A stretch of DNA of 64,000 bases from Methylobacter tundripaludum (GTDB lineage Bacteria; Pseudomonadota; Gammaproteobacteria; Methylococcales; Methylomonadaceae), in assembly GCF_002934365.1 (NCBI RefSeq), contig NZ_PTIY01000007.1, positions 1 to 64,000 of the forward strand, in the 5' to 3' direction. The position numbers and the translations under genes were made by a program. The first letter of the stretch is position 1; every line of letters starts with the position of its first letter. Positions 14,101 through 44,198 of this stretch are shown in pieces. The notes beneath the pieces are model-generated. The model ran no database searches. It saw only the letters and a list, made by a program, of their open reading frames with translations, and was not told where the DNA came from.

Positions 14101-14746
14101 TACTTTACGCGAACGGGAAATAACCGGAGCTTGCCCCGAGCGTAGCCGAGGGGGCGGCAAGCCGCATACGCCGATCGCCGCGCTAACCGCTCACGCCTCG
14201 ACAGGCGAACGCGAAAAATGCTTGACCGCAGGCATGGACGATTATCTCAGCAAGCCTGTCAGCCGGGCCGACTTGGCAATCGTATTGGCCCGCTGGCTGG
14301 TTACGCCATCCCATCTTACAAGCGCATCAACGCCTGAAGATAATGGCGCTGAACAGGGCCTCCCTTTGGCGAAAGAGCAAGCCGAAAACAGCGGAATTTC
14401 AGCGGCCTGCTGGAATGAAACATCGGCGCTCGAACGGCTGGACGGCGACATTGACTTATTGATCGAGATGATAGACCTGTTTCTCGAAGAGGCGCCTGTC
14501 TCTGTCGCGGAATTGAGCACCGCCCTGGATAAAGCCGATCTTCCGGCATTGGCCGATGCAGCCCACGCCATTAAAGGCATGGCCGGACATTTTTGCGCCG
14601 ACCAAACCATCAGCCTTGCGGCGAATCTGGAACATGCCGCCCGTAGCGGCGCCGATACCGATTTTCAGGCAATGATCGACGACTTGACCCTGGCCACGGT
14701 GCGTTTAATCGAGAGTTTGCTGCAAAGAAAACGACAAAACCAATGA
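11141..14746 (+). CDS. Hybrid sensor histidine kinase: 2TM-PAS-PAS-GAF-HisKA-HATPase-REC-REC-Hpt
   Basis: A 1201-residue phosphorelay kinase of BarA-like layout. Two membrane helices (about 27-49 and 61-83) are followed by two PAS domains (about 105-215 and 222-345) and a GAF domain (about 375-515). The H box NMSHEIRTPMNG has the phospho-His at 541. An ATPase domain includes ITDTGIGIS and GGTGLGLSIS. Two receiver domains have phospho-Asp 835 (SDMQMPDMDG) and 974 (MDCQMPVMDG), and a C-terminal Hpt domain has His 1142 (AHAIKG). The phosphoryl group could thus pass His-Asp-His within one protein and then to a separate regulator. An in-frame palindromic repeat codes ACPERSRGG in the second receiver, near residues 997-1005. 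The stop overlaps the next gene's ATG (ATGA), so both are coupled. Confidence 0.95.
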   Translation: MKKQTASKKLMTSPLSPDPKNNSLCSLGCIIAAVSVSETLVILLLGAIHQQGIVLSPLQDAVLNIALLTALSSALLWFLTVRPLTLQIAEERTASNKELLEALENHVLLSIADVQGRIVYANDMFCKVSGYARHELIGQDHRIVNSGYHDQDYIRNMWRTIAGGQVWKGEFCNRRKDGGLYWVDSTIVPSLDKAGKPKQYISIRRDTTARKANELKLTALKRALDASSEMILITDAEGFIQYANPALCLFTGWTEDALIGQKPYVLDSPTASCTDAGGRAMQGAIAEMQDRLHCSEPWSGRLRGRRRGNASDQDTLEYWAKTNITPILSADGALSGYVQIQHDVSKQVEQEAALQIETDDTAARLSISEALHQPLTLEQRFIQILAILFGLKALDRQRKGCIFLRAQDENYLEKFVELNEQDADQCLGIERRIAFGDGLCGQVAVSRKLSVTAHCSCGGLQPHGHYIVPIASGEDILGVLFTVTDPYPVHSESRIAMLTEVGEMIALALLQHQANTSLEAARDAALQVAQAKTEFLANMSHEIRTPMNGVLGMLDLLQDTQLSREQWDLIDIAANSAESLLTIINDILDFSKLEAGKIELEQIEFNLPELVEEVCTLLSSRAHGKGLELNCFLPMNLPLRWHGDPTRIRQVLTNLIGNAVKFTERGEVSVKVAMPENNGSVLYPGKPTALRFEITDTGIGISAEAQTRLFQAFSQADSSTSRRYGGTGLGLSISKDLVVLMNGHIGVESTAGQGSIFWFTLPLEPMASDVPVPQANFADKRALIVDDNATNRMIMNHYLSNWGFTLSEADSAPAALTELEAAALRNEPYDLLLSDMQMPDMDGFALARAIIANPAIADTPRILLSSGSIGSQAERIASGFAQSLLKPVRQTQLFDAIIDALQLPGRKTAGVAKAAEVLPDYSGNRVLVVEDNKVNQKVILSQLAKFQIRPDLANNGQAALERLERQTYDLVLMDCQMPVMDGYEATRTLREREITGACPERSRGGGKPHTPIAALTAHASTGEREKCLTAGMDDYLSKPVSRADLAIVLARWLVTPSHLTSASTPEDNGAEQGLPLAKEQAENSGISAACWNETSALERLDGDIDLLIEMIDLFLEEAPVSVAELSTALDKADLPALADAAHAIKGMAGHFCADQTISLAANLEHAARSGADTDFQAMIDDLTLATVRLIESLLQRKRQNQ
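14127..14163 (+). repeat. Palindromic repeat inserted in frame in the kinase receiver domain
   Basis: GCTTGCCCCGAGCGTAGCCG and the following GAGGGGGCGGCAAGC form an inverted repeat with outer arms GCTTGCC/GGCAAGC. It is read in frame as the peptide ACPERSRGG. It falls in the loop of the second receiver, just before HTPIAALTAHA, where related kinases carry only a few residues. This matches the dispersed palindromic repeats that insert into surface loops of bacterial proteins. Confidence 0.75.
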
Positions 14747-21404: not shown

Positions 21405-21435
21405 ACACTAGGAAACCTAATTTGACTCATTGCTT

Positions 21436-22428
21436 ATGGCTATCGCAAATCAAATAAAAGCTTTGTTAAAATCGCATGTTGATGGCGATGACGCTCTGTT
21501 TTTGTCTATTGCAATGCAGATGGCCGCTCAAGAGGCAAAGCAAGGGCATGGGAAATTCGCCAAAGAAATTCGGGATTTAATCGATGAGGCAAAATCTACT
21601 CGCCGGACGAATGATTTAACGCCAATACCTTTAGTCAAACCGAAAGGCGAACTTAGTAATTTACTGAATGTTTCATACCCCAAATTGCGTTTGGTTGACA
21701 TGGTGTTGTCTGCCAATATCGAAACCCGGCTACAAAGGCTGATTAAAGAACATAAACACGTTCAAAAATTGCGTTCTCATGGTTTAGCCCCACGTAAAAA
21801 ACTTTTGTTAATCGGTCCGCCAGGAACCGGAAAAACCTTGACGGCTTCTGTTTTAGCTGGCGAACTTGGCTTACCGCTGTTTATTGTCAGACTCGAAAGT
21901 CTAATGACAAAATACATGGGAGAGACAGCAGGCAAACTGCGTTTGATTTTTGACGCCATCCAGCAAACGCGTGGTGTTTATTTATTCGATGAGTTCGACA
22001 GCATTGGAGCTCAAAGAGGCAATACTAACGATGTTGGTGAAATACGACGGGTTCTCAATAGTTTCTTGCAGATGATCGAACAAGATACTTCCGATAGTCT
22101 GTTAATTGCAGCAACCAATCATTCAGAGATGCTTGATCACGCGTTGTTTCGACGCTTCGATGATCTGATCGAATATGATTTACCGGAAAAAAAAGAAATC
22201 GTCGCAGCCTTCAAGTCAAAACTGGCTGCATTTAAAACATCCAGAATTTTATGGACAAAAGTGACTGAAGCAGCGGATAAATTAAGTTATGGCGATATTA
22301 CTAGGGCTTGCGAAGATGCCATAAAAGACGCGATTATCCATAATAAAGAATTTGTCAGTCATTCAGACCTCATTCACTCAATAAAAGAGCGGTGTTTAAT
22401 CCGTCAGAAACAACAAGTAAACTCGTAA
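21436..22428 (+). CDS. ietA: AAA+ ATPase of an IetAS-type ATPase/protease pair
   Basis: A 330-residue AAA+ protein. A helical N-terminal part (1-90) is followed by the ATPase core: Walker A GPPGTGKT near 126-133, YMGETAGKLRLIF for pore-loop-like and helix elements, Walker B YLFDEFDSIG near 181, sensor 1 in LLIAATNHSEML, and the arginine pair in FRRFDDLIEYDLP. A small C-terminal helical lid follows. Its partner is a subtilisin that starts on the base after this stop codon. AAA plus subtilisin pairs of this layout are known as IetA/IetS, first described as a plasmid-exclusion and stability module and later reported as an anti-phage system. The ATG at 21436 is chosen over an upstream TTG. Symbol assigned by architecture, not by alignment. 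Confidence 0.85.
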   Translation: MAIANQIKALLKSHVDGDDALFLSIAMQMAAQEAKQGHGKFAKEIRDLIDEAKSTRRTNDLTPIPLVKPKGELSNLLNVSYPKLRLVDMVLSANIETRLQRLIKEHKHVQKLRSHGLAPRKKLLLIGPPGTGKTLTASVLAGELGLPLFIVRLESLMTKYMGETAGKLRLIFDAIQQTRGVYLFDEFDSIGAQRGNTNDVGEIRRVLNSFLQMIEQDTSDSLLIAATNHSEMLDHALFRRFDDLIEYDLPEKKEIVAAFKSKLAAFKTSRILWTKVTEAADKLSYGDITRACEDAIKDAIIHNKEFVSHSDLIHSIKERCLIRQKQQVNS

Positions 22429-24912
22429 ATGGCAGATAACAGCAAGGAACGCCTTCCTCATCTTTTAATAAAAAAGTTGGCCAGTACAGACACTTATACG
22501 AGGCCTCAAAAAGCTATTGTCCTACCTGGAATGCAACTCCCTCAAAGAGATCGGCAATTTCACGCCCAACAACTGCTTAATCAAATCGAACAAGTAAAAA
22601 CTCAACAAACTACCATTATTCAAGAACAAAAAGCGTTCGGTCTGGATGTCAATAATGGAATTTACCTAGCCTTTGAAAGCGAACCAGACTTCGAATTAAA
22701 GTTTAGCAGCCTGGAATTTCAGCCCAGCGGTATTGAGCTTTGTACAGTTAAAGGAGCAGATCACAAAACAATTGCCACCGTTTTTGTTCCAGAAGGAAAG
22801 CTCTCGCATTTTCTGAAGAAGATTTCACAATATCAGGAAGAAAACACACCCAAAAATAACCCCAAACACAAAGAGCTGGTAGAAAGTATTGCTGGTATTA
22901 AACTGGCTGCCTTGGATGCCCTCTGGACTGATGCTCCCGAATCATTGCCTAATATCGATGAATCGATCTGGTGGGAAGTTTGGTTACGTCATAGCGATAA
23001 CATCGACTACGAATCATTTCTTCGTGAACATGCCCCTCAACTAGAAATGAGGGTCGGCAAAGAATCAATACGATTTCTCGATAGAACTGTTGTTCTTGTT
23101 TATGGCACTAAGGAACAGATGAGCCGCTCTATTCACTTATTAGGCTCTATTGCTGAACTTAGAAAAGCTAAAGACACCGCCGATTTTTTTACCGGCATGG
23201 ATAGGCAAGATCAACATAATTGGATAAGCCAAACATTGAAGCAATTGACGCCCCCATCCAATGCATCCCCTTATATCTGTATCCTTGATACTGGGGTTAA
23301 TGAACAACACCCACTGTTAATACCAGTTGCTGACTCACCAGATATGCATACTTATACCCCGGTGTGGGGAACCGATGATCGCAATGGTCACGGTACTGCA
23401 ATGGCGGGATTATCCGCTTATGGCGACTTAACCGAAGTGTTGGCTTCCGCTTTACCCATACAGCTCACCCATCGTATTGAATCGGTAAAAATTACACCAT
23501 ATCCCGGCTTTCATGAAGATAAACGCTTATATGGTGCGATTACTCGTGAAAGTATCACACGAGTTGAAATCGAACCCAATCGGCAACGTATCTATTGCAT
23601 GGCGGTATCTGCCACTGATGATAGGGATAGGGGGCGACCTTCCTCTTGGTCGGCTGCTGTTGATGCGCTTGCATCGGGTTATGACGATGAACAACAGCGA
23701 TTGATTATTCTGTCTGCCGGCAACACGGCTCAAGCTTTTAGACACATGTATCCGAACAATAATCTGGCCGACGAGGTGCATGATCCGGGGCAATCATGGA
23801 ATGCATTAACAGTTGGAGGGTATACCGAAAAAGTCTGGCTTGATTCGGTAGAATATCCAGGTTGGTTGCCGATAGCTCCACTAGGAGATCTATCCCCATC
23901 CAGTTGCACTTCCATGGATTGGCAAAAAACCTGGCCCATAAAACCCGATATTGTTATGGAAGCAGGTAATATGGCTATCGATCCGATATACGGCAATGCC
24001 GACTATATTGATGATGCTCTACAATTATTGACTACAGGACATAAGTTTTTACTTGATAAACAACTGGTTTCATTCGGAGATACCAGCGCAGCAGCGGCAT
24101 TGGCTGCTCATTTGGCTGCGAAAGTACAAACCCACTATCCCGAGTACTGGCCGGAAACCATACGGGCATTAATGGTCCATTCTGCAAAATGGACAGATGC
24201 GATGAAAACAAGATTTGCCCCATTCAATACCAAAGACCAATACCGCCAATTACTGCGCTATTGTGGGTATGGCGTTCCCGATGAAGAAACGTTATTTTGG
24301 AGCAGTCGAAACGAATTGACACTAATTGCTCAGGATGCGTTACAGCCATATTTTAAAGATAAAAGCACAGTTAAAACCCGCGATATTAATTTACATAGCC
24401 TACCCTGGCCCACTGAAGTATTACGTGACTTACCAGCAAATACCCGCGTCGAAATGAAAGTAACCTTATCTTATTTTATCGAACCGAATCCCGGATCAAG
24501 AGGATGGGTAAACAAATACCGTTATGCATCCCACGGCTTACGTTTTGATGTGCGTCGATCACTTGAAAGCCTGGAACAATTTAAACAACGCATCAATCAA
24601 CTTGCGCGTGATGAAGAATATAACAGTCAAGCACAGCCCGAAAGTGGCGAATGGAAATTGGGCGAAAAATTGCGTAGCTTGGGTTCCATTCATTCAGATA
24701 CATGGCATGGTTCCGCGGCGGAACTTGCAGAACGTGGTTATATTGCCGTTTATCCTGTGTTGGGCTGGTGGAAAGAGCGAGCAAATCTGGATCGATGGGG
24801 CAAACAAGCTCGCTATACATTGATTGTCAGTATTAAGACACCGGGAGTTGAAACAGATATTTACACGCCAGTTGAAATTAAAAATCAATCAGTTATATCT
24901 TTGGCTGTGTGA
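22429..24912 (+). CDS. ietS: Subtilisin-like serine protease of an IetAS-type pair
   Basis: An 827-residue cytosolic S8 protease without a signal peptide. The catalytic triad is intact: Asp in CILDTGVNEQHPLL (about 287), His in DRNGHGTAMAGL (about 321), and Ser in GDTSAAAALAAHLAA (about 553). The N-terminal 270 residues are charged and helical and may bind the AAA partner or an inhibitor; the C-terminal 200 residues are rich in beta strands. The ATG follows the AAA stop directly (TAAATG), so the two are coupled. In IetAS systems the ATPase is thought to control a toxic protease. The pair is AT-richer than the trp genes next to it and is flanked by a dead oxidase gene, which fits horizontal gain. 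What triggers it is unknown. Confidence 0.88.
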   Translation: MADNSKERLPHLLIKKLASTDTYTRPQKAIVLPGMQLPQRDRQFHAQQLLNQIEQVKTQQTTIIQEQKAFGLDVNNGIYLAFESEPDFELKFSSLEFQPSGIELCTVKGADHKTIATVFVPEGKLSHFLKKISQYQEENTPKNNPKHKELVESIAGIKLAALDALWTDAPESLPNIDESIWWEVWLRHSDNIDYESFLREHAPQLEMRVGKESIRFLDRTVVLVYGTKEQMSRSIHLLGSIAELRKAKDTADFFTGMDRQDQHNWISQTLKQLTPPSNASPYICILDTGVNEQHPLLIPVADSPDMHTYTPVWGTDDRNGHGTAMAGLSAYGDLTEVLASALPIQLTHRIESVKITPYPGFHEDKRLYGAITRESITRVEIEPNRQRIYCMAVSATDDRDRGRPSSWSAAVDALASGYDDEQQRLIILSAGNTAQAFRHMYPNNNLADEVHDPGQSWNALTVGGYTEKVWLDSVEYPGWLPIAPLGDLSPSSCTSMDWQKTWPIKPDIVMEAGNMAIDPIYGNADYIDDALQLLTTGHKFLLDKQLVSFGDTSAAAALAAHLAAKVQTHYPEYWPETIRALMVHSAKWTDAMKTRFAPFNTKDQYRQLLRYCGYGVPDEETLFWSSRNELTLIAQDALQPYFKDKSTVKTRDINLHSLPWPTEVLRDLPANTRVEMKVTLSYFIEPNPGSRGWVNKYRYASHGLRFDVRRSLESLEQFKQRINQLARDEEYNSQAQPESGEWKLGEKLRSLGSIHSDTWHGSAAELAERGYIAVYPVLGWWKERANLDRWGKQARYTLIVSIKTPGVETDIYTPVEIKNQSVISLAV

Positions 24913-33804: not shown

Positions 33805-35277
33805 CTAGCGCCCCCCCACTCCATCCAGAAGTTTGATGAAATTCCGCTTAGGTTTGAAGCGGACGCGCAACTCGACCAAATAATCCCCGAACTCACGATT
33901 CCGGTTCTGGGCAATCATTATCCCACCAATCTTGCGGATGAGCTTAACGGCATCGGCATAAGCTGTATTGTTGGTTTGATTAACGATGTCTGGAATCACT
34001 TGCTTATAAAGTGCCAGCGCATCGTCCGCGCGCGTCGGTTCCAATTTATCGGCCAACGCTATCAGCAAGCCCTGATGGCAGATGCCTGCATGTGCCGCCG
34101 CCCAGGCTGCATCAAGGTCATCCTCCCATAAAGCGATTTCAACCCGCAATGAATAGTTGGGTATTGAAGGTTTCGGCCTCCAGCGGTTTGTAACCGCAGC
34201 TTCAGCGGCAATGACTTCGGCAACCCATGCCAAGGCGCGCTCACGCTGCTCCGGCCAAACGCCAAGTTGCTTGGCAACACCAGACAGTTTTTTGTATTGC
34301 TCCAGAAATGCCCGTTCCTCGAACTGCACCCAAGTCAATTGCAAGGCTTCATCGTTGCGCTTGCGTTGCAGATAGACCGCCACCAAAAAATCCCGCAACC
34401 GGTTGTCCGTCGCTTTGGGAAAAGCTTGCAGACCGCGTTCCGCCCAGTCCAGCGCCTTATCGTCCTGCCCTGCCTTGACCCATATTTCGGCAATTGTCAG
34501 ATAGTGGTAAGACATCGATAGATCGCGCGACTTGATCGCCACCAGCTCCTCCACATCGCCGCTCGCCTTGGCCAGCGATTCCATGATACTGGTGATATGG
34601 AAACGATGAGAATCGTAAACGTAAGCGTCACCGCTTTGCCGTGGCTTAATCTTGGCCCACTCGACTTCAGCCAATTCCCGATAACGCCGCAGCCCTTCCT
34701 CACCGAGCGCATCAAGGTAAGTGACTGCGCTAAAACTGCAAATCCCGAATGGCGATGTCGTCTCTAAACGGAACAAGCGTTCCGCCAGCGCTTGCGGATC
34801 GGGTTTCGCCAACTCGCAGGCGCTAAGATGCAAATCGCCAAGTGCTTGTACGATGCTGCCGACCTCGCCATTCGAATCGTCAATCTGTTCCAGAGCGCTT
34901 TCCACTCGCTCAATGCCGTATTCGGCCAATCCGATCAACATCCCAGCGCTATCGGGTGTAAGCAGTTCCGCCAGCGATTCCACAACCTGGTCGAGATTAG
35001 CCGCAAAGTTGCGGGACTGCCGCCAGTCAATAAAACCCTTGATACGCGTCGCTTGGTCTATCGCCCTGCGAAAGGCTTTGACGACATCGGTTCCGCCTGC
35101 AACACGCTGGGCCTTGAGCAATAAAGACTGATGCAACCGGTCATCGCGCTTGGCGGTATCCAGCAACAGCTCGATCAATACCTCGGGAGTTTGTGTGTTC
35201 AAATAATCCCGGATATCGCTCCACTGATCGCGGCGTTTCTTTTTTCCGGCTACTGCGCCGCCTGATTCTTTCTGCAT
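33805..35277 (-). CDS. DUF6880-like helical-repeat protein
   Basis: A protein of about 490 residues, nearly all helical, with TPR-like periodicity (ALDWAERGLQAFP, RRNDEALQLTWVQFEE, then AALA-type helices). The N terminus is basic and Lys/Arg-rich (VAGKKKRRDQWSDIRDYL). The block TPEVLIELLLDTAKRDDRLHQSLLLKAQR resembles the start of proteins described as DUF6880, which are also found attached to SWIM zinc-finger proteins. No catalytic motif is seen. The ATG at 35277 is preferred: it lies four bases after the lgt stop, whereas a TTG at 35313 would overlap lgt. It is inserted between lgt and thyA, which are often neighbours. Function unknown. Confidence 0.8.
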   Translation of the reverse strand: MQKESGGAVAGKKKRRDQWSDIRDYLNTQTPEVLIELLLDTAKRDDRLHQSLLLKAQRVAGGTDVVKAFRRAIDQATRIKGFIDWRQSRNFAANLDQVVESLAELLTPDSAGMLIGLAEYGIERVESALEQIDDSNGEVGSIVQALGDLHLSACELAKPDPQALAERLFRLETTSPFGICSFSAVTYLDALGEEGLRRYRELAEVEWAKIKPRQSGDAYVYDSHRFHITSIMESLAKASGDVEELVAIKSRDLSMSYHYLTIAEIWVKAGQDDKALDWAERGLQAFPKATDNRLRDFLVAVYLQRKRNDEALQLTWVQFEERAFLEQYKKLSGVAKQLGVWPEQRERALAWVAEVIAAEAAVTNRWRPKPSIPNYSLRVEIALWEDDLDAAWAAAHAGICHQGLLIALADKLEPTRADDALALYKQVIPDIVNQTNNTAYADAVKLIRKIGGIMIAQNRNREFGDYLVELRVRFKPKRNFIKLLDGVGGR

Positions 35278-35281
35278 CGGT

Positions 35282-36073
35282 TTACTTATTTGGAATAGTT
35301 TTTTTATGCGCAAAATAAAATAACGCCGCGCCGATCAAAATCATCGGCGTCGACAGTATCTGGCCCATAGTCACCCAGTCCAAAGCCAAATAGCCTAACT
35401 GCACATCCGGCATCCTGAAAAACTCGACAAAAAACCTGAAGCAGCCGTAAAAAAATAACGCCAATCCGGTAGTCGCCATAACCGGCCTCGGTTTGCTGGA
35501 ATATACCCAGAGGATAGCAAACAACACGACGCCCTCTAAAAAGGCCTCGTACAATTGCGAAGGATGGCGGGCTAACGGGCCGCCGTTTGGAAAAACCATC
35601 GCCCAAGGCACATCGGTGGGCCTGCCCCATAACTCCGAATTGATAAAATTGCCGATACGCCCCGCGCCCAAACCGATAGGCGCCAGCGGCGCGATAATAT
35701 CGGTCAATTGCAGCATGCTGCATTGCTGTTTTTTGGCGAACAGCCACATCGCGATAAATACGCCCAACATGCCGCCATGAAAGGACATACCGCCCTGCCA
35801 GATTTTAATCAGCACCAGCGGATTCTCCAGGAAACCGGCAAAATTATAAAACAGGATATAGCCGATCCTGCCGCCCAGGATGACGCCGAACGCGCCGTAG
35901 GTCACCAAATCTTCTATGGCTTCCGGTTTGATCGGCGACCAGGGCTGCTCTGCGCGTTTTTGCCCTATAAACCATACGGCGGCGAAACCGATCAGGTACA
36001 TCAGGCCGTACCAGTGAATTTTTAGCGGGCCTAAACTTACAGCGATGGGATCAATTTGGGGAAAATTCAGCAT
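35282..36073 (-). CDS. lgt: Prolipoprotein diacylglyceryl transferase
   Basis: A 263-residue inner-membrane enzyme that moves diacylglycerol onto the lipobox cysteine of prolipoproteins. Seven membrane helices are apparent. Signatures: IHWYGLMYLIGF, GGRIGYILFYNF, GGMSFHGGMLG, the Lgt hallmark GAGRIGNFINSELWGRPT, and HPSQLYEAFLEG. Length is normal. First gene of the leftward lgt - DUF6880-like - thyA group. Confidence 0.98.
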   Translation of the reverse strand: MLNFPQIDPIAVSLGPLKIHWYGLMYLIGFAAVWFIGQKRAEQPWSPIKPEAIEDLVTYGAFGVILGGRIGYILFYNFAGFLENPLVLIKIWQGGMSFHGGMLGVFIAMWLFAKKQQCSMLQLTDIIAPLAPIGLGAGRIGNFINSELWGRPTDVPWAMVFPNGGPLARHPSQLYEAFLEGVVLFAILWVYSSKPRPVMATTGLALFFYGCFRFFVEFFRMPDVQLGYLALDWVTMGQILSTPMILIGAALFYFAHKKTIPNK

Positions 36074-36121
36074 AATTGTCGAGTTAATGGTTTATTGAAG
36101 TGGTAGTTATCTTTATATCCA

Positions 36122-36208
36122 TCGCACATTAAAATGCGGTATCTGCGCTCCCTCTCCTGCTGGAGAGGGTTAGGGTGAGGAGATTTAATAACCGACAATG
36201 ATGTGCGA
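36122..36208. repeat. Nested palindromic repeat between parE and lgt
   Basis: An inner hairpin CCCTCTCC/GGAGAGGG (36150-36157 and 36162-36169, loop TGCT) is framed by outer arms TCGCACAT (36122-36129) and ATGTGCGA (36201-36208). The phrase after the hairpin, TTAGGGTGAGGAG, is common in dispersed bacterial hairpin repeats. Confidence 0.5.
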
Positions 36209-36269
36209 ACACTATATTTGTCGTAATTGTATCTTTAGCCGCATCTACCAGCCTAATAAGATTTACCGC

Positions 36270-36623
36270 TCAAGCAAATGCCGACCGGTTCGCTGGCTCT
36301 AACTTGACCTGCATAGCTGCCCATCCTGTCCTGCTAATGGAACAGTGTTTTAATGTCGCGGGAGCTGTGCAGAACCCTGACAATGTCGGCGCATCTTTAA
36401 GCGGAAGATAAAAAATCAGATAACTGCCGACCGGAAAACTCCGCAAATCTTGGGCCAGTTCATCGCGGCTTTCCCCTAAGCCCGGAAATTCGGCAATCAG
36501 GAAGCATTTTTCTTGGATGGAATCCATAAACTTATCGGCGTTATTGGGGCTGTCCTGTGCGATATGCCACCAAATCTCATCAAGATCGGTTTCAGCCTGG
36601 GGCTTTTTTAACAAACGCGGCAT
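36270..36623 (-). pseudogene. parE: ParE-family toxin with a C-terminal frameshift
   Basis: The first 75 or so residues are a clear ParE/RelE-fold toxin (KPQAETDLDEIWWHIAQDS, FPGLGESRDELAQDLRSFPVGSYLIFYLPLKD). The reading frame then turns into unrelated sequence. In the neighbouring frame the DNA gives ADIVRVLHSSRDIKTLFH followed by a stop at 36334-36336, exactly the expected ParE ending. One base is missing near 36389-36393. The toxin thus lacks its last beta strand and helix and carries a foreign tail of about 40 residues, which should abolish or weaken it, unless this is a sequencing error. Its start overlaps the parD stop by one base (TAATG). Confidence 0.85.
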
Positions 36624-36883
36624 TATTTTGTGTTTTCTTTGTCCACAAGCCGTTCACGCCCGCGTTTTTTGATGCTTTCCATGTCCAGTGGGGTCGATTC
36701 GCCGCTGTCCATCCCAAGCCTGATCTCTTTTTTCAGTTCCTCAAGGCGCAGGCCGCGAACCTGATCACGTTCCTCCATGAGGCGCAAGGCATCACGGATG
36801 ACCTCGCTTGCCGAATGGTAAAGGCCGCTGTCCAGCTTGTTTTTGACCAGCTCTTCAAAATGAGGGGTAAGGGAAATGTTCAT
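36623..36883 (-). CDS. parD: ParD-family antitoxin
   Basis: An 86-residue ribbon-helix-helix antitoxin. The first 45 residues (NISLTPHFEELVKNKL, then SGLYHSASEVIRDALRLMEERD) bind DNA as a dimer; the charged tail (KKEIRLGMDSGESTPLDME) normally covers ParE. Coupled to the frameshifted parE through TAATG. With its toxin damaged it may remain only as a repressor. It resembles the orphan ParD at 159-437, and cross-binding is conceivable but untested. Confidence 0.93.
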   Translation of the reverse strand: MNISLTPHFEELVKNKLDSGLYHSASEVIRDALRLMEERDQVRGLRLEELKKEIRLGMDSGESTPLDMESIKKRGRERLVDKENTK

Positions 36884-37165
36884 GGGTTTTGCTCCGCCGC
36901 TAAAATAACAACAAATAACAATTTATGTTATTTTTAACGGGAAGTCCACAATAAAGACCAAGCCTGTGAGTGTCGCTTTCTCTATATGCTGGGCAGTTAC
37001 GTTGTAGGGATTGCGCTATGAGTTGAATCTAAAGAATTAAAGTTAGCATCGAATTGTGTAGGATGCTGCCGACGCAAGGAGGCGCATCAATCATCGCGGA
37101 GATGCGCTTTATTTTGTCCTGCGCATCCCACCGAGCTAAAATCATATTAGCCGTTTAAATTTCGA
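36884..37165. other. Gap with a GCGCATC palindrome
   Basis: No gene is seen. GGCGCATC (37081-37088) and GATGCGC (37102-37108) are inverted, preceded by GGATGCTGCCGACGCAAGGA and followed by TGCGCATCC. This is another short repeat of dispersed type between the ParDE locus and the end of the large STAND-like gene. Confidence 0.4.
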
Positions 37166-40100
37166 TTATGAAAGTGAACGTAAGTACACAGCAAAACAGG
37201 TATCTTTCCTAATTGCTTCAGCTTGATCGGACGGTTCTATTCTATCAATGTTTAGGATGTTTATATCAGAGCGCTCCCCAGAATGAATAATAGCCGCTGC
37301 AACAACTTCAAGAGCAACGATAGTACGATGCCTGTTTAACCACTCACGGAGAAGTTCAAATATTTGGGCAACCTGTTCACCTTGCTTTAGATATTTATCA
37401 ATCAAATGCTCTATCCGCCAATAAGCGTCTGACTTTTGAATAATTACGTCTAATTTCTCGAAAAAATCTGTTTTATCAATCAGTGTTTCTTTTCGCCACC
37501 GTTCCTCAAGCCGAGAATCGAGATATGTACGTCGGAATTCAAACCAGCCACGATCATTACAGTGTTCCCAGATAAAATGAATATCCATGGAATTCAAATA
37601 ATCGAGATAAGGGATAAGAACCTCAAACTGGCGAATGTTATTAACACCTGGATGATCGAAAACCTTGATGCCTAGCTGAAAGTGTAGATGCTCCAGCAAC
37701 TTGCGAGGCTCTGGGCAACTAGAAATGGCCTCTTCTGCCAACTCAATCGAAGTCGGCGAAGCAATATAGAGTGCGTTTTGAACATACTTTCCGGTGAAAC
37801 GCAGATGCTTCCAATGTTTAATTAATAATTGTTCCGCCGTTGATGCATTTAGTGTCGGAAATAAACCAGCAATAATGAAATCAAGCTTATGTCCGCTGTA
37901 CCATTCCAATGGAACTTCAGCTCCCCGTTTCTGCAAAGCCACATCAAGCTCAACCGTCAATTCATCTGCCCAAATATGTTTCCCAAGTTGCCACCAATTA
38001 CCCCATTCATCGTCTTGGAGTTTTTCGATAAAAGCGGGAATTGCTGATTGGTCGCCTCGTTCTAATCTTGCCCTTAAAATTTTGTTAGCTAACGGCTCGT
38101 TAGTATCAATTGCATTCAGCAATTTTAAATCATCAGATTCCAATGTTGCCGCCCAAAGCTCGAAGGCCTGAATACGTAAATATTTATCGTTTTCTGTGCT
38201 AAGCCAAAGCTGTTGCAATTTTTGCCGCGAAGCAGAAGACATTCCTTTACCAGTGCCCCTTTGTTTACGTTTCCAGTTGCTCTTAGCATGTGAGAAAAAA
38301 GGAGAAAAGAAATCGGCTTCCTCTCGTATACGACTCAATGCTGCCAACTCTTGCGCTATAAATGCGACAGCATCGGGGTGATCAACGCCCCGCAACATAC
38401 AAGTGATAGGCCAACGTAAATCCTCACTGTTTGCCCTTTCGATAAAATAGTGTAAAGCCGTTTCTGGCAAAGCTTTATTAAATGCCCAAGAAATATTATC
38501 TGCTGCAAGATTATCCCTTGGTGAAAATGAATCATCCTCAACGCTATTAATGGGCAATTGAGCCCACACATCACAAACAGCTTCAAGCAGTTGTTTGTGA
38601 TTATCACCACAGCATTCAGCTGCCGCCCATAGATAATCAGCCAAATACTCAATCTTGTTTGAATCTATAGACCAGCAGATAGAAATGCTATTGCCTAATG
38701 ACGGATCGGCCAAATGACCGGCCAAACGAAGTGCACCGCAACGCATGCCTTTTGAAAGATCAGATTGTTTCAAAACTTCGTCGACTTTTTGGATTAAGCT
38801 ACTCCCAAACCGTAATTTTGCATGTTCAATTTGGTAGTCTTTCCATGGTGCATCAACTCCGGGTTCAACACAACAACATAGCTGAACACCTGCACTTACA
38901 TCACCATTGCGAAACCGCGCCATCATGGACGGGAAGGAATCGTCACGAAATTTTTTAGTAAGTTCGATGACATGCTGTGACTCAGTTTCAGATAAAACCT
39001 GCAAAGCAGCATATCGCAAGGCATTATTTGAACGATCAAATAGATTTGGAGAAGTTAGCCATTGGTTAATGGCTGTAAGTTTTGCTGTGCTTTGTTTGTG
39101 CGAAGTTAACCTGCAATTTTTTAGCGCATAGAACAATGCCAATGGATTTAATGCTTGTATTTTTAAGATGGCTTCACTTGGCACGTTTGTCTCGGTCAAA
39201 GCTGCACCTATTACATCCGCAAAAAATGGGTCTGAAAGGGCAGAGTCGTCCATACTTCCTATCTGCAATTGTTCAGCAATTGCATCAGTCAATAGCCATG
39301 CTCTAACTCGGTCATGCCGAAATGCTATTTGTTCTATTCCGCACTTGTCATTGAACTGGATAATTTCAGCACATTGAAAAACTTGACGAAATGCAGAAAG
39401 GTAATCCGACTGAGCATTTAACCAATTTTTAATTTCCGCCCAACTTGGCTCCATTCGTCGATTGCTTAACATTTCAAGGGCGACAGCGCGTATAGCTGTT
39501 CGATACTCGGATACTGTAAAGTTATCAGGCTTTTGGGCTAAACGCTGAAGACTACCATTGATGTAGTCCTTGATTACTTCTTGCGGCTCAGATTTTGCGT
39601 CGAAATCGTAAAGAGCTATAAGCAAAGGATCATTACCTAAGGCTAATGCAATCTTATCTGCATCCATTGTGGATAAGTTTTTCCCAAGCAGTAAAGCTTT
39701 TTGCTTTATAGCAGCACAAGCTTCTTGCTTTGAAAAAGAACCTGTCGAAATAGTCAATTTATCAATTCGCTTTTTGAGCTCCTCAGAAACCATTGTCAAC
39801 ATTCGAGGCCAGACAGGGCAAATCAAACGCCAACTCGGCGAAGTCACGTCACTATTTATATTAGAGCTTGGTATCCAACCGATAAGTTTCTCAAGTAACT
39901 GGGCGGGAGCGTTGGACTTATTTATATCTTCAACGACAATCATAAACGGGTCGTGCGACGAACAAAGCCCAAGTGCAATTCCTCCTATTCCGGCATCCAA
40001 GTTAGGTCTTAATCTTCTGAGTTCAGCATCAATCGCTTGCTCTAAAGTTCTTTGTGCTGCCACTATTTCATTAGTTAAAACCAAACCACAGCCACCGTTA

Positions 40101-40870
40101 TCGATATGGCTTTTTAAACGTTTGTAGCAAGTTACCGTTTTTCCGACACCAGACTCCCCAGCCAGAAAACCCATTGGAACTGGAAAGGACTCAATTAACG
40201 CTCTGTCAAGAGACCTATCAACAAGACTTTCATTTGAAACTTTTAACGGAAAGGCCTTGATGCTTTCTTCGGAAAGCGTTCGTAGCAGGGATTTCGACAA
40301 TCGTTGTTCGGCAATACCGAAAAACCGTTTACGAAGACATTCGCCTTCTGGGTCGTTATCGAGATAGTCGGCGATACGAGAACCAGACCAAATATCGATA
40401 GTAATTCCATAATCCGCAGCCGCTTTGTTGACATCGCGAATCAAGTCTTCCGGCGGCTCTCGGTTTGTTGTTAATGCTAAAGTAACCGATAGCTCAGGAT
40501 TACGCTGACGTTCATTTTTCACAATTTCCATTGTCTTTAAAACGTCTCCCGCTGGAGCTGTAGGTTTTGATCCCTGAGCCTTGACCTTCGAAGGATCGTG
40601 CAGCCATTTTTTGCGTAAACCAGCTGCTGGGCCTTTCCCATGATGAGCAGCAATCATGTGTGGTGGACTTTTACCAAAAACAAAAGCAATGCCGTCGACT
40701 GGTGACTTTACTGTACTCCCATCTGGATTCATTCCCGGATGAGCTAAATTGGCGTAAAGCAATGGGTTTGCTTTCCGTAAAACTGACGTTGCTAGGCGTT
40801 CGAAAGCACCCGCATCAGTAATTTGCTCAAGGGCGCGTGTTGTTTGGCTATGATCAAATTTTGCGGTCAT
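37166..40870 (-). CDS. Large nuclease-like/STAND NTPase protein, probable anti-phage sensor
   Basis: A protein of 1234 residues. The N-terminal 190 residues resemble a restriction-endonuclease fold: GAFERLATSVL with Glu24, PVDGIAFVF with Asp59, and HMIAAHHGKGP where His77-x-Lys79 stands in place of the usual Glu/Gln-x-Lys. A STAND-like NTPase follows, with Walker A GESGVGKT near 238-246 and Walker B FMIVVEDINKSN near 308. From about 450 to the end the protein is a helical solenoid, as expected of a sensor. This order (nuclease-like effector, STAND, solenoid) is that of Avs-type phage sensors that act when they recognise a conserved phage protein. The ATG at 40870 is preferred to an upstream TTG. 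It is AT-rich and sits between two toxin-antitoxin loci. The nuclease assignment is the weakest part. Confidence 0.75.
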   Translation of the reverse strand: MTAKFDHSQTTRALEQITDAGAFERLATSVLRKANPLLYANLAHPGMNPDGSTVKSPVDGIAFVFGKSPPHMIAAHHGKGPAAGLRKKWLHDPSKVKAQGSKPTAPAGDVLKTMEIVKNERQRNPELSVTLALTTNREPPEDLIRDVNKAAADYGITIDIWSGSRIADYLDNDPEGECLRKRFFGIAEQRLSKSLLRTLSEESIKAFPLKVSNESLVDRSLDRALIESFPVPMGFLAGESGVGKTVTCYKRLKSHIDNGGCGLVLTNEIVAAQRTLEQAIDAELRRLRPNLDAGIGGIALGLCSSHDPFMIVVEDINKSNAPAQLLEKLIGWIPSSNINSDVTSPSWRLICPVWPRMLTMVSEELKKRIDKLTISTGSFSKQEACAAIKQKALLLGKNLSTMDADKIALALGNDPLLIALYDFDAKSEPQEVIKDYINGSLQRLAQKPDNFTVSEYRTAIRAVALEMLSNRRMEPSWAEIKNWLNAQSDYLSAFRQVFQCAEIIQFNDKCGIEQIAFRHDRVRAWLLTDAIAEQLQIGSMDDSALSDPFFADVIGAALTETNVPSEAILKIQALNPLALFYALKNCRLTSHKQSTAKLTAINQWLTSPNLFDRSNNALRYAALQVLSETESQHVIELTKKFRDDSFPSMMARFRNGDVSAGVQLCCCVEPGVDAPWKDYQIEHAKLRFGSSLIQKVDEVLKQSDLSKGMRCGALRLAGHLADPSLGNSISICWSIDSNKIEYLADYLWAAAECCGDNHKQLLEAVCDVWAQLPINSVEDDSFSPRDNLAADNISWAFNKALPETALHYFIERANSEDLRWPITCMLRGVDHPDAVAFIAQELAALSRIREEADFFSPFFSHAKSNWKRKQRGTGKGMSSASRQKLQQLWLSTENDKYLRIQAFELWAATLESDDLKLLNAIDTNEPLANKILRARLERGDQSAIPAFIEKLQDDEWGNWWQLGKHIWADELTVELDVALQKRGAEVPLEWYSGHKLDFIIAGLFPTLNASTAEQLLIKHWKHLRFTGKYVQNALYIASPTSIELAEEAISSCPEPRKLLEHLHFQLGIKVFDHPGVNNIRQFEVLIPYLDYLNSMDIHFIWEHCNDRGWFEFRRTYLDSRLEERWRKETLIDKTDFFEKLDVIIQKSDAYWRIEHLIDKYLKQGEQVAQIFELLREWLNRHRTIVALEVVAAAIIHSGERSDINILNIDRIEPSDQAEAIRKDTCFAVYLRSLS

Positions 40871-40880
40871 AAGGGGCAGT

Positions 40881-41159
40881 ATGTTGGAAACTAATGGAAC
40901 CAATTCTTCGATTGATTTTGTAAAATTTATGACCGTCCGCCATTATTCATCAAAAAAACGTTTTCTGGATAAATTAAAGCAATCTCATTCAATCTATGAG
41001 GGTGATGTTCTCATTGACTTAACTATGTTAAGAAAATCAGATGCTATTCGGTGTGCAAACGAGGCTTTACAAATATGCCATAGTTCACCACGAGCCAACA
41101 TTTACCTTACTATCAATCAGCCTCAGCCAAAATCAATCGAATTGTTTCTATCGTCATGA
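40881..41159 (+). CDS. Possible small protein divergent from the STAND gene
   Basis: An open frame of 92 codons with AAGGGG four bases before ATG and a basic, partly helical product (SSKKRFLDKLKQSHSIYEGDVLIDLTMLRKSDAIRCANEAL). No family is recognised. Against it: its start is only 10 bases from that of the STAND gene on the other strand, it must contain that gene's promoter, and its end overlaps the TacT-like toxin by 47 bases. It may be spurious or a decayed gene. Confidence 0.25.
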   Translation: MLETNGTNSSIDFVKFMTVRHYSSKKRFLDKLKQSHSIYEGDVLIDLTMLRKSDAIRCANEALQICHSSPRANIYLTINQPQPKSIELFLSS

Positions 41160-41625
41160 ACAGAGTCATCGGTTGCAAAGGCGACTCCACGAAACCGCGT
41201 GAAAGGTAGAACTGCTTGGCTTGGTCGGAAAGCGCATGAACCAATAAGGCAAACACTCCGGCATCATCGGCGACGTTGACTACCCGTAGCATCGCATCGC
41301 GTAACAGTGCCTGCCCGATTCCCTGATTGTGGTAGCGCTTATCGACGGCGAGCCGACCCAGCAGCAGGACCGGCAACGGGTTGGGCATGTTGCGCGGCAT
41401 CGTCTTCGGTGCGCCCTCGTGGCTGATCGCTCCGGCCGACAGGCTGTAGTAAGCAATAACATCAGCACCGGTACACAACACGAAGCAGCGGGAAGCGCCG
41501 GAGGCATGATGCTTAAACGCGCGTTTTTTGAACCATTGGTTTAGGGATGATTCGCCGCTGTCGAAACCTGCCAACTCATGATTAGCCGTGATCGGCTCGG
41601 GCGGTGTGAAATCAAGCGCGCTCAT
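41113..41625 (-). CDS. GNAT acetyltransferase toxin, TacT type
   Basis: A 170-residue GNAT-fold enzyme of the TacT/AtaT group, toxins that acetylate the amino group of charged tRNAs and stop translation. Seen are FDSGESSLNQWFKKRAFKHHASGASRCFVL (group hallmark), VIAYYSLSAGAI, LLLGRLAVDKRYHNQGIGQALLRDAM with the acetyl-CoA pyrophosphate loop QGIGQA, and QAKQFYLSRGFVESP with the catalytic Tyr. The ATG at 41625 overlaps the antitoxin stop by four bases (ATGA), which is why it is preferred over a start three codons earlier. Antitoxin partner directly upstream. Confidence 0.93.
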   Translation of the reverse strand: MSALDFTPPEPITANHELAGFDSGESSLNQWFKKRAFKHHASGASRCFVLCTGADVIAYYSLSAGAISHEGAPKTMPRNMPNPLPVLLLGRLAVDKRYHNQGIGQALLRDAMLRVVNVADDAGVFALLVHALSDQAKQFYLSRGFVESPLQPMTLFMTIETIRLILAEAD

Positions 41626-41909
41626 TTCTCCCAAGGCGCTTTGGTCTTGAGCAGCCAGCGTAGTTTGTCAGTCGGCGGCAATGGCTGATCAAGCAGTGCC
41701 TGAAATTTAGCAAAGGCGCCTTCATCGACGGTAAAGAATGCTTGGCCGAGCAGCACGTCTTCCGCTTCACGGCAGGCGGCTTCAAGCATGAAGTCTGAGC
41801 GGCTGCGACCCAGGCGACTTGCGGCTTGGTCGATAAGATCGCGTTGTCTGGCCTTAGCGCGGATGTTGATGGAAACGGAAGCCGCTTCTTTGGCTTGTGC
41901 ATTTGGCAT
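41622..41909 (-). CDS. DUF1778 antitoxin, TacA type
   Basis: A 95-residue ribbon-helix-helix antitoxin. The DNA-binding part is SVSINIRAKARQRDLIDQAASRLGRSRSDFMLEAA. The C-terminal half (FFTVDEGAFAKFQALLDQPLPPTDKLRWLLKTKAPWE) is the GNAT-neutralising tail. GGAG lies eight to nine bases before ATG. First gene of the two-gene toxin-antitoxin operon; the complex is expected to repress its own promoter. The upstream gap contains two palindromic elements. Confidence 0.94.
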   Translation of the reverse strand: MPNAQAKEAASVSINIRAKARQRDLIDQAASRLGRSRSDFMLEAACREAEDVLLGQAFFTVDEGAFAKFQALLDQPLPPTDKLRWLLKTKAPWEK

Positions 41910-42017
41910 GGCGATACTCCTTTGTATGCAGCCTGAGCATATATTATTGTATAGAAGGTTACAACACAGGCAGCCCTATTTCCCACGCCCCGCTCTCATC
42001 GTTGTGAACAAGTGGGT

Positions 42018-42130
42018 GCCTCGAAAAACCTGTTCCGTTCATGCTTCGACAAGCTCAGCACGAACGGAACAGGTTGATTATCCTAGAGCCGTTCGCATTG
42101 AGCTTGTCGAAATGCGAGGTTTTTCGAGGC
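42018..42130. repeat. Palindromic element A, 113 bp
   Basis: Perfect 14-base terminal inverted repeats GCCTCGAAAAACCT (42018-42031) and AGGTTTTTCGAGGC (42117-42130) enclose a second perfect 12-base pair, CCTGTTCCGTTC / GAACGGAACAGG (42029-42040 and 42062-42073). Inside are TTCGACAAGCTCAGCACGAA and a divergent inverted relative with GAGCTTGTCGAA, a motif known from dispersed repeats of many bacteria. No gene inside. Confidence 0.75.
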
Positions 42131-42276
42131 TCCCAAGTATTTCAAAGCACGTCAGGTTATACTTCTGACGATCTTCGGGTTAATGCAAATCCATTCCGGC
42201 CAGATTTGTGCTGGAATGACGGTATAGCGCATTACTGTTTTTAGATAATATGTTCTAACTTAACTGGTAAAATTGA

Positions 42277-42438
42277 CCTGATTAGCAAGCTGCTTCAGCT
42301 AATTCCAAAACCGTCGTTCCGGCAGGGATTGCCGGAACCCAGATACCATGGATGGCAGGCTGAATCACATCCCTGTGTTCTGGATACCGGCAATCCCTGC
42401 CGGTATGACGACTTAGCTGAAGCATCTTGCTAATCAGG
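42277..42438. repeat. MITE-like element B, 162 bp, with nested inverted repeats
   Basis: Terminal 26-base inverted repeats (42277-42302, beginning CCTGATTAGCAAG, and 42413-42438) differ at one position. Inside lies a second inverted pair: CGTCGTTCCGGCAGGGATTG (42313 onwards) and CAATCCCTGCCGGTATGACG (42391 onwards), then GGAACCCAG / CTGGATACC. The inner core is the same as in the element at 7508-7703. No reading frame inside. The element ends 21 bases before the cytochrome gene and may carry its promoter. Confidence 0.8.
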
Positions 42439-42459
42439 TAGTTTTTTGGAGCCAAAACC

Positions 42460-43311
42460 ATGTCAGATAATTATCGCACTCGCCAAACACTTTCTCGACT
42501 CTGCGCTCTGCTGCTCTATTTCATCGGATTCTCATGTTATTCCTCTTCACTAACATTCGTTGACAATGGCCATATCGCCAAAACGATGGAGACCGATGAA
42601 CTGGTTCAAAGCGGTGGAATAAAGACGTTAACCGCAAACAACCCGACCGATTTGACAATCAAATCTTATCAAGGCGTTTCGTTAATCCCGCTGTTGGACG
42701 CCGTTTTTAATTCAGAGTGGAAAAACCGCGACGCGATTAAATTTACAGCATCGGACGGATACCAACCTATCATCCCCATTAGCGTCATCCTCAAGCACAA
42801 CGGGATCATCGCCATAGGCGAAAACGGTCAACACGGGTTTTCGCAGCTGCTTAGAAACAATCGGGAGACCGTCGATCCGGGGCCATTTTTTTTGGTGTGG
42901 GAAAATATCCAAGACATCGCCGCCAAAAATGAACCTTGGCTCAGTTGGCCGTGGCAATTAACGACCATCGAATTAACCTCATTCGAGCGGGAATATCCGC
43001 AATCAACGCCGCCCGCCGCCAGCCAGGAATCTGTTAAAAAGGGGTTTTTGGCATTTCGGCAACATTGCATAAAATGCCATGCCATTAATGGTGATGGCGG
43101 CAATATCGGACCGGAACTCAATTATCCCGTCAGCGTTACCGAATACTGGCAGCCTGAATGGCTGGTCAGATTTATCGCCGATCCGCAAAGCGTGCGGGCA
43201 AACAGTAAAATGATCCCGTTTTACCGTGATGTCGGTAACCGAGGGGAACTCATCGCTGATATTGTCGAATATCTGAAAGTGATGGCAAGCAGAAAACCGT
43301 TGAATCGTTAG
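42460..43311 (+). CDS. Periplasmic cytochrome c with a molybdopterin-domain-like N-terminal half
   Basis: A 283-residue exported protein. A signal sequence (LSRLCALLLYFIGFSCYSSSL) is followed, at about 40-170, by a segment with the pattern of the sulfite oxidase-type molybdopterin fold: SYQGVSLIPLLDAVF, AIKFTASDGYQPIIPISVIL, IIAIGENGQHG, DPGPFFLVW. The cofactor cysteine is not apparent, so this half may be a structural relative only. Residues about 195-275 are a class I cytochrome c with heme motif CIKCH at 203-207 and a likely axial Met in SKMIPF. Probable role is electron transfer with an unknown partner. The DUF2272 gene follows by 14 bases. Confidence 0.75.
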   Translation: MSDNYRTRQTLSRLCALLLYFIGFSCYSSSLTFVDNGHIAKTMETDELVQSGGIKTLTANNPTDLTIKSYQGVSLIPLLDAVFNSEWKNRDAIKFTASDGYQPIIPISVILKHNGIIAIGENGQHGFSQLLRNNRETVDPGPFFLVWENIQDIAAKNEPWLSWPWQLTTIELTSFEREYPQSTPPAASQESVKKGFLAFRQHCIKCHAINGDGGNIGPELNYPVSVTEYWQPEWLVRFIADPQSVRANSKMIPFYRDVGNRGELIADIVEYLKVMASRKPLNR

Positions 43312-43325
43312 AGGAGTCGATTGCC

Positions 43326-44063
43326 ATGCCTTATTTTCTACTCAGTATTGTTTTGCTTGTTAATGGCTGCGCTCTACTAAAGCAAGGTGAAATGCCTGCC
43401 ATTACCGCCGATGACAATGTCAGCCCATCGTTTGTTATTCCTAACGTTAGAGATCGGATGCTGTACCTTGCCCGCCAGGAATGGGAATTGTTCGGCCGTC
43501 CCGAAGTCAATTACGATATTGAGCCGCCTTCACTCACTTATCCAAGTGAAGCAAGCCATGGTCATGAAACTCTACCGCCTTTTTTCAGCCGGATTTTCAT
43601 GTATTGGTATGCTGTGACAGACCTACCGATAATCGGGCATGAAGGGGAGATTAGACCCTGGTCGGGCGCTTTTATTGTCTGGCTAGCCCGAAGCGCAGGC
43701 GTGCCTGAAAGCGATTTGCCTTCTACCGTTTTGCATTGGGATTATATTGAGCATGTGATGTCGGCCGGTTCCGAAGACAGGTTTGTAAGCCATGACATCA
43801 GCACTTATGCCCCTAAACCCGGAGACATTATTTGTACGCCACGGGGTGAAGCTTTTATCCAGTCAATTCGCAGCTATAACGATCTAAGACGCGGGGCTTA
43901 CCACTGTGATTTAGTGGTTGCACAACGGCCTGGAGAGCTTGACGTAATAGGCGGCAATGTCCTGGATGCGGTCACTTTAGCCCATATCAAACTGGACGGA
44001 GCGGGAAAGGTGCTGCCCACAAAAACCAGGCCATGGTCGTTGGCGATAGAACAGCGAAATTAA
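43326..44063 (+). CDS. DUF2272 domain lipoprotein
   Basis: A 245-residue protein with a short hydrophobic N terminus ending in VLLVNGCALL, a fair lipobox with Cys15. The rest matches DUF2272, a family related to cell-wall amidase-like folds: WSGAFIVWLARSAGVP, FVSHDISTYAPKPGDIICTPRG, and YHCDLVVAQRPGELDVIGGNVLDAV, where the Cys/His-containing blocks would form the active site if it is an enzyme. GAGGAG lies eight to nine bases before ATG. It shares a transcript with the cytochrome upstream. Substrate unknown. Confidence 0.82.
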   Translation: MPYFLLSIVLLVNGCALLKQGEMPAITADDNVSPSFVIPNVRDRMLYLARQEWELFGRPEVNYDIEPPSLTYPSEASHGHETLPPFFSRIFMYWYAVTDLPIIGHEGEIRPWSGAFIVWLARSAGVPESDLPSTVLHWDYIEHVMSAGSEDRFVSHDISTYAPKPGDIICTPRGEAFIQSIRSYNDLRRGAYHCDLVVAQRPGELDVIGGNVLDAVTLAHIKLDGAGKVLPTKTRPWSLAIEQRN

Positions 44064-44148
44064 AATACGAGTATCAGAATGGATGCATCAATCAACCAGG
44101 CAAACCATAAGGTCGGCCCGGTTGTTAAAGCGCCGTTAGATTTTTAAG

Positions 44149-44173
44149 CGTCAGTTAAACTGACGGAGTTTTT
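44149..44173 (+). terminator. Intrinsic terminator after the DUF2272 gene
   Basis: CGTCAGT pairs with ACTGACG around a three-base loop (44149-44165), followed by GGAGTTTTT. Correct orientation for the plus-strand cytochrome-DUF2272 unit, facing the gyrB 3' end. Confidence 0.65.
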
Positions 44174-44198
44174 CACCGACTCTGTGATTCGACCATGA

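Follow-up and report, generated by a model that had tools for sequence, protein, structure and literature searches.

A nuclease-STAND protein with an NLR-like core at the gyrB–lgt insertion hotspot of Methylobacter, a probable antiphage sensor

In the window analyzed here (64,000 nucleotides of Methylobacter tundripaludum, contig NZ_PTIY01000007.1), the minus-strand gene at 37166..40870, stop codon included, encodes a protein of 1234 amino acids that is, on predicted folds, a large bacterial cousin of the animal NLR immune receptors. Most probably (about three chances in four), this nuclease-STAND protein is an NLR-like antiphage sensor encoded by a single gene, and its nuclease effector brings about the death or arrest of the cell upon infection. 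The open reading frame starts with an ATG at 40870 and runs uninterrupted over 1234 codons, as in the original prediction of a giant ORF, and it is not a chance ORF since full-length homologues occur in many phyla; two structure models span all its residues. The predicted layout is a restriction-fold N terminus (∼188 residues), an NLR-like core (∼190–687), and then an α-solenoid, so that, on fold predictions, the effector–STAND–repeat sensor arrangement of Avs1–Avs5 (AVAST) is found within one polypeptide. The GC content of the gene is 42.5% (vs. 51% for lgt and 50% for gyrB).

Residues 1–188 (40307..40870, minus strand) constitute the effector domain. The first 200 residues were modeled with 16 sequences (from the window and from fetched loci), with a pLDDT of 84 and a pTM of 0.81; residues ∼47–57, which adjoin the active site, are poorly modeled. 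In the Foldseek search, Avs4 (8dgf) comes first (E 3.6e-4), with the match at its nuclease end, and MspJI second (E 5.9e-4). With VIA-align, the Z score is 10.0 for Avs4 (rmsd 4.6 over 150 residues), 9.8 for AspBHI, 9.7 for the BspD6I nickase, 9.4 for MspJI, and 8.7 for FokI; the best 12 rows are all Avs4 or restriction enzymes (Z 10.0–8.2). Because the matches are to these proteins, the modeled domain is assigned the restriction fold, and the α–β core of the PD-(D/E)XK/restriction-endonuclease fold is present in it. The restriction-type fold that had been thought possible is thus recovered, and the prediction of a non-nuclease N-terminal domain, which would have spoken against it, did not come out of the modeling. 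A search of the N-terminal profile against the sequences of solved structures gave chance matches only. A sequence link to Mrr was considered and rejected, as the hhalign comparison of that profile with the Mrr domain of a protein from a sister genome (G010, see below) reached no significance.

The conservation of residues was followed in an alignment of 22 sequences from bacteria and archaea, in which the nuclease domain is the best-conserved domain (44% mean identity). In the N-terminal domain, E24, D59, K88, G108, D109, and K112 are invariant (22/22). On the minus strand, the putative metal-binding Asp59, in a PxD motif, is at 40694..40696; Lys88, a candidate for a relocated catalytic Lys in the helix 82–90 that follows the catalytic strand, is at 40607..40609; and D109-x-x-K112, in a GDxxK motif at the start of helix 109–123, is at 40535..40546. 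The usual Glu/Gln position corresponds to residue 76 in the predicted strand 71–78 (His76, 40643..40645), with H in 14 sequences, E in 3 (among archaeal and cyanobacterial relatives), Q in 1, and A in 4 (as in Acinetobacter). At position 78, where the catalytic Lys is expected, the family has T, G, or A. The signature D...(D/E/Q)xK is therefore absent, with an invariant D59 followed by [HEQA]-x-[TGA] at 76–78, in a register that derives from the alignment and the predicted strand and not from a superposition. The triad originally proposed, D59...H77-x-K79, had to be rejected on conservation: D59 is invariant, K79 is private to the 1234-residue protein (1/22; the remaining 21 have T, I, S, or V), and the E/Q column is 76. 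At the family level, the assignment of His77-x-Lys79 to the active site is wrong. With the canonical (E/Q)xK lysine missing, nuclease activity is uncertain. From the conserved residues, catalysis may occur through a relocated Lys (K88 or K112), which is the simplest reading that retains an enzyme; since the active site is atypical and without E/QxK, this is put forward as a proposal only. The rearranged site offers a clear test of the capacity of a PD-(D/E)XK site to change.

The STAND NTPase switch, the HD1, and the winged-helix regions cover residues 190–545 (39236..40303, minus strand) and form, with HD2, a predicted NLRC4-like fold. The Walker A motif GESGVGKT (residues 238–245; 40136..40159, minus strand) is conserved in the family, with G241, G243, and K244 invariant in the 22 sequences and either S or T at 240. 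In the Walker B motif VVEDIN, Asp315 (39926..39928, minus strand) and N317 are both present in 22/22. The intact P-loop and Walker B seen in the original prediction are thereby confirmed at the family level. A GxDP motif is also conserved in the switch, with N replacing G in three relatives of the same alignment. In place of the His/MHD motif of NLRs, there is an FRHD motif (residues 517–520; 39311..39322, minus strand), invariant in 22/22 and placed after the winged-helix hairpin, the strands of which are residues 315–328 of the model of residues 190–1234. In NLRs, the His after the winged-helix hairpin contacts the nucleotide, and the His of FRHD is expected, by analogy, to do likewise.

The switch and sensor were modeled together (residues 190–1234, 14 sequences, pLDDT 85.8). 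The core, residues 190 to ∼687 (1–494 of the model), matches residues 93–590 of NLRC4 with a Z of 13.7 and an rmsd of 5.1 over 388 residues, a Z that the helical parts may inflate. Other matches of the core are NLRP3, NLRP9, and NOD2 (Z 12–13.7 for the NACHT cores of NLRC4, NLRP3, and NOD2), and named NLR or NB-ARC proteins make up 24 of the best 25 rows for the NTPase core. For the Avs proteins, the Z scores are 10.0 (Avs4) and 9.5 and 9.2 (Avs5). The predicted core thus has the NBD–HD1–WHD–HD2 fold of NACHT proteins (bNACHT, NLR), and the conserved motifs and the fold match (Z up to 13.7) place it in the STAND NTPase superfamily, with weak profile matches. Among eight homologues, these are weak but consistent, with nSTAND3 in six and also nSTAND5, NACHT, and NB-ARC; the NACHT profile gives three weak matches, the best at E 3.7e-4. 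The Pfam NACHT profile does not match the 1234-residue protein at E up to 10. The Walker B signature of NACHT proteins is D[GAS]hDE, and the family reads [ED]D[hydrophobic]N instead.

Residues 546–1234 (37169..39235, minus strand) comprise an HD2-like region and the C-terminal α-solenoid sensor, with ∼43 predicted helices. The solenoid part resembles the HEAT-repeat karyopherin Kap121p (Z 9.9). In the 22-sequence alignment, the nuclease domain has 10.6 invariant columns per 100 and the solenoid 1.7, as a conserved effector joined to a variable sensor should show. A helical sensor of 800 residues had been anticipated; the C-terminal part is all-helical in the model, but the sensor proper is nearer 550–690 residues.

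The M. tundripaludum genome contains one copy of the family, and the gene is absent from 60/60 related genomes searched. Profile searches of 397 other genomes, a sample of the phylum, identified two more carriers. With tblastn on plasmids, seven records were found (95%–100% coverage, 26%–37% identity), in Aliarcobacter (two), Sphingomonas, Acinetobacter, Pseudanabaena, and two haloarchaea. Another 19 loci came from scanning species genomes, with carriers that include Corallococcus, Tildeniella, Leptolyngbya, Xanthobacter, Marinomonas, Chlorobiaceae, Latescibacterota, Opitutia, and a Zetaproteobacteria MAG. Overall, the full-length relatives are 25%–44% identical and are spread over many phyla of bacteria as well as haloarchaea, with plasmids or the vicinity of defence genes as frequent locations. 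The sequence tree mixes phyla (cyanobacterial, myxobacterial, Klebsiella-MAG, and Latescibacterota sequences form one supported group) and, because of this intermixing, fits a horizontal spread of the family. In E. coli genomes, we did not observe any close counterpart of the homologue from the Klebsiella MAG. Phage encoding was considered and rejected, with no full-length match in phage records and none in IMG/VR; a weak match of residues 15–123 to a Curtobacterium phage protein annotated as hypothetical (E 0.02) was treated as chance.

At the homologue loci, taken on their own, the neighbors include Shedu and Lit, AbiEii, and PADLOC-listed families. SEC-C proteins are present near the homologues in Aliarcobacter and Sphingomonas. 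In two Acinetobacter records, the homologue adjoins urea carboxylase genes (annotated in L006, with a matching ORF layout in L019), which suggests a recurrent place of insertion.

In M. tundripaludum, the gene lies in an insertion of 8.1 kb between lgt and gyrB (36078..44193, no strand), together with a ParE-type toxin gene (36270..36623, minus strand; PF05016, E 9e-15), a GNAT toxin + TacA antitoxin pair (41113..41909, minus strand; PF13508, E 3e-9 and PF08681, E 1e-19), a cytochrome-like gene, and a DUF2272 gene. Little or nothing is inserted at the site in 13 of 19 congeners, with an lgt–gyrB spacing of ∼5 bp in 12 and of ∼240 bp in one more (the empty site of G012 was confirmed by direct reading). 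The same slot in the sister genome G010 contains a 751-residue Mrr-nSTAND3 protein (PADLOC PDC-S73, E 9e-282) and a RhuM protein (PDC-S05), and shares the GNAT/TacA and cytochrome genes with the M. tundripaludum insertion. In G009, the ParE and GNAT/TacA genes flank a 527-residue protein with a SEC-C-like start; the GNAT/TacA pair is thus retained in both G010 and G009, with other cargo next to it. Type I restriction-modification genes occupy the site beside lgt in G002 and G019, and housekeeping-type genes adjoin lgt in G006 and G011. The gyrB–lgt junction is an insertion hotspot in the genus, swapping antiviral systems between related species, and its slot brings together, at one compact site, a natural series of exchanged defence cassettes.

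Among known systems, Avs4 (AVAST type 4; PDB 8dgf) has a restriction-fold N-terminal effector (Z 10.0), a STAND NTPase (Z 10.0), and a helical-repeat C terminus, as here. However, Avs4 has >1530 residues, there is no detectable sequence similarity, the (E/Q)xK is missing in the 1234-residue protein, and the core of the latter scores higher with NLRs. The bNACHT proteins of clade 6 (bNACHT25, bNACHT32) combine a PD-(D/E)XK effector, an NLR-type NTPase core, and a C-terminal helical domain in a single gene (PMC12169576); by description, the present protein is set apart by the absence of a Pfam NACHT match, a Walker B of the form hhhEDhN, and a long solenoid. The Mrr-nSTAND3 protein of G010 is also a restriction-fold nuclease with a STAND NTPase, in the same chromosomal slot, but with a canonical QxK (LQCK) Mrr site and clear Pfam Mrr_cat and nSTAND3 matches, and without a significant profile match to the nuclease-STAND family. 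With the NACHT cores of NLRC4, NLRP3, and NOD2, the shared features are the NBD–HD1–WHD–HD2 arrangement and the invariant His after the winged-helix hairpin; unlike these receptors, the present protein has a restriction-fold effector, and its sensor is an α-solenoid and not LRR. An Avs4-like effector fold joined to an NLRC4-like core can help to trace the origin of NLR-type receptors.

Avs1–4 cleave DNA upon recognising phage proteins (PMC12931631), and bNACHT25, with its N-terminal PD-(D/E)XK DNase, requires the nuclease residue D48 for phage protection (PMC12169576). In a similar way, the C-terminal α-solenoid would bind a phage product or sense a host change caused by infection; the ADP-bound, closed NBD–HD1–WHD–HD2 switch would then be released, ATP would bind, and the protein would oligomerise, gathering the N-terminal restriction-fold domains into an active nuclease that would degrade DNA. 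Defence function, trigger, oligomerisation, and nuclease activity are all inferred here by analogy, as the best account of the fold, the motifs, the context, and the tested behavior of systems with the same layout. More tentatively, and with the odds somewhat against it, we propose a new family of STAND immune sensors of bacteria and haloarchaea, in which the restriction-fold effector has lost the (E/Q)xK lysine and cuts nucleic acid through a rebuilt site (E24, D59, and D109 with K88 or K112), under an NLRC4-like switch devoid of the NACHT signature. If active, it would represent an uncatalogued nuclease-STAND sensor, missed by defence finders, from plasmids of Acinetobacter and Aliarcobacter to haloarchaea.

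The protein could be a true member of Avs1–Avs4 that has diverged past the current profile models, with its identical layout, an N-terminal fold closest to Avs4, and Avs4 also among the matches of the NTPase. This is improbable. No Avs model in PADLOC or NCBIfam (the latter with at least Avs2 and Avs5) matches the protein at E up to 1, phmmer against the Avs chains of the PDB gives nothing at E up to 10, and NLR proteins outscore Avs4 for the core. The low resemblance to named Avs families, pointed out originally, is in agreement with these searches, and neither NCBIfam nor PADLOC models class any homologue in a named Avs type, which would have spoken against the original claim. More generally, the family has no match above threshold to Avs, NACHT, or any other family in Pfam, NCBIfam, and PADLOC, and no sequence-level match to any proven defence protein was found. 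Since profile membership was tested and did not appear, the protein, which would work in the manner of Avs and bNACHT proteins, is filed as neither. Of the undescribed Avs subtype suggested at the outset, an undescribed nuclease-STAND protein of Avs-like build is well supported; the support does not extend to an Avs subtype, with the core closer to NLR/NACHT (Z 13.7) than to Avs4 (Z 10.0). The family is real, uncatalogued, and in a defence hotspot, and a separate STAND family with the Avs layout fits better.

A somewhat less unlikely alternative concerns the effector. The restriction-fold domain might no longer be a nuclease and act as a DNA/RNA-binding or oligomerisation module, the protein sequestering nucleic acid or recruiting another effector; T, G, or A at the Lys position of (E/Q)xK and A at residue 76 in Acinetobacter would agree with such a loss. 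Yet this best-conserved domain keeps E24, D59, K88, D109, and K112 without exception, in proteobacteria through to haloarchaea, unlike a decaying enzyme, and we noticed no conserved partner gene fit to act as effector in the annotated homologue loci. The least probable alternative is that mobile elements maintain the gene as a STAND protein of stress, regulation, or addiction, without antiphage role. STAND proteins do include transcription regulators, such as MalT, and the same insertion carries two toxin-type loci. Its toxin–antitoxin genes could independently explain the persistence of the insertion. But no DNA-binding output domain was found in the protein, and the same slot in the sister species contains restriction systems and another nuclease-STAND.

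Other genes are worth mentioning. Adjoining lgt, a DUF6880 protein (33805–35313, minus strand) is a PADLOC candidate (PDC-S62, E 5e-44), and this stretch is also present in G010. The 527-residue protein of G009 (L047:2546-4126, minus strand) has its SEC-C-like stretch at the N terminus and no PADLOC match. On the plus strand of the window, a 1662-residue protein (644–5632) contains a SIR2-like domain (PF13289, E 2e-9), with weak matches to the short-Argonaute-associated SIR2 and PDC-S65 models, and a 1201-residue protein (11141–14746) has a weak Shedu-type match (SduA, DUF4263) near the C terminus (residues 922–986). Also on the plus strand, IetA and IetS, a known two-gene defence system, form a pair at 21430–24912 (PADLOC, E 2e-79 and 2e-46).
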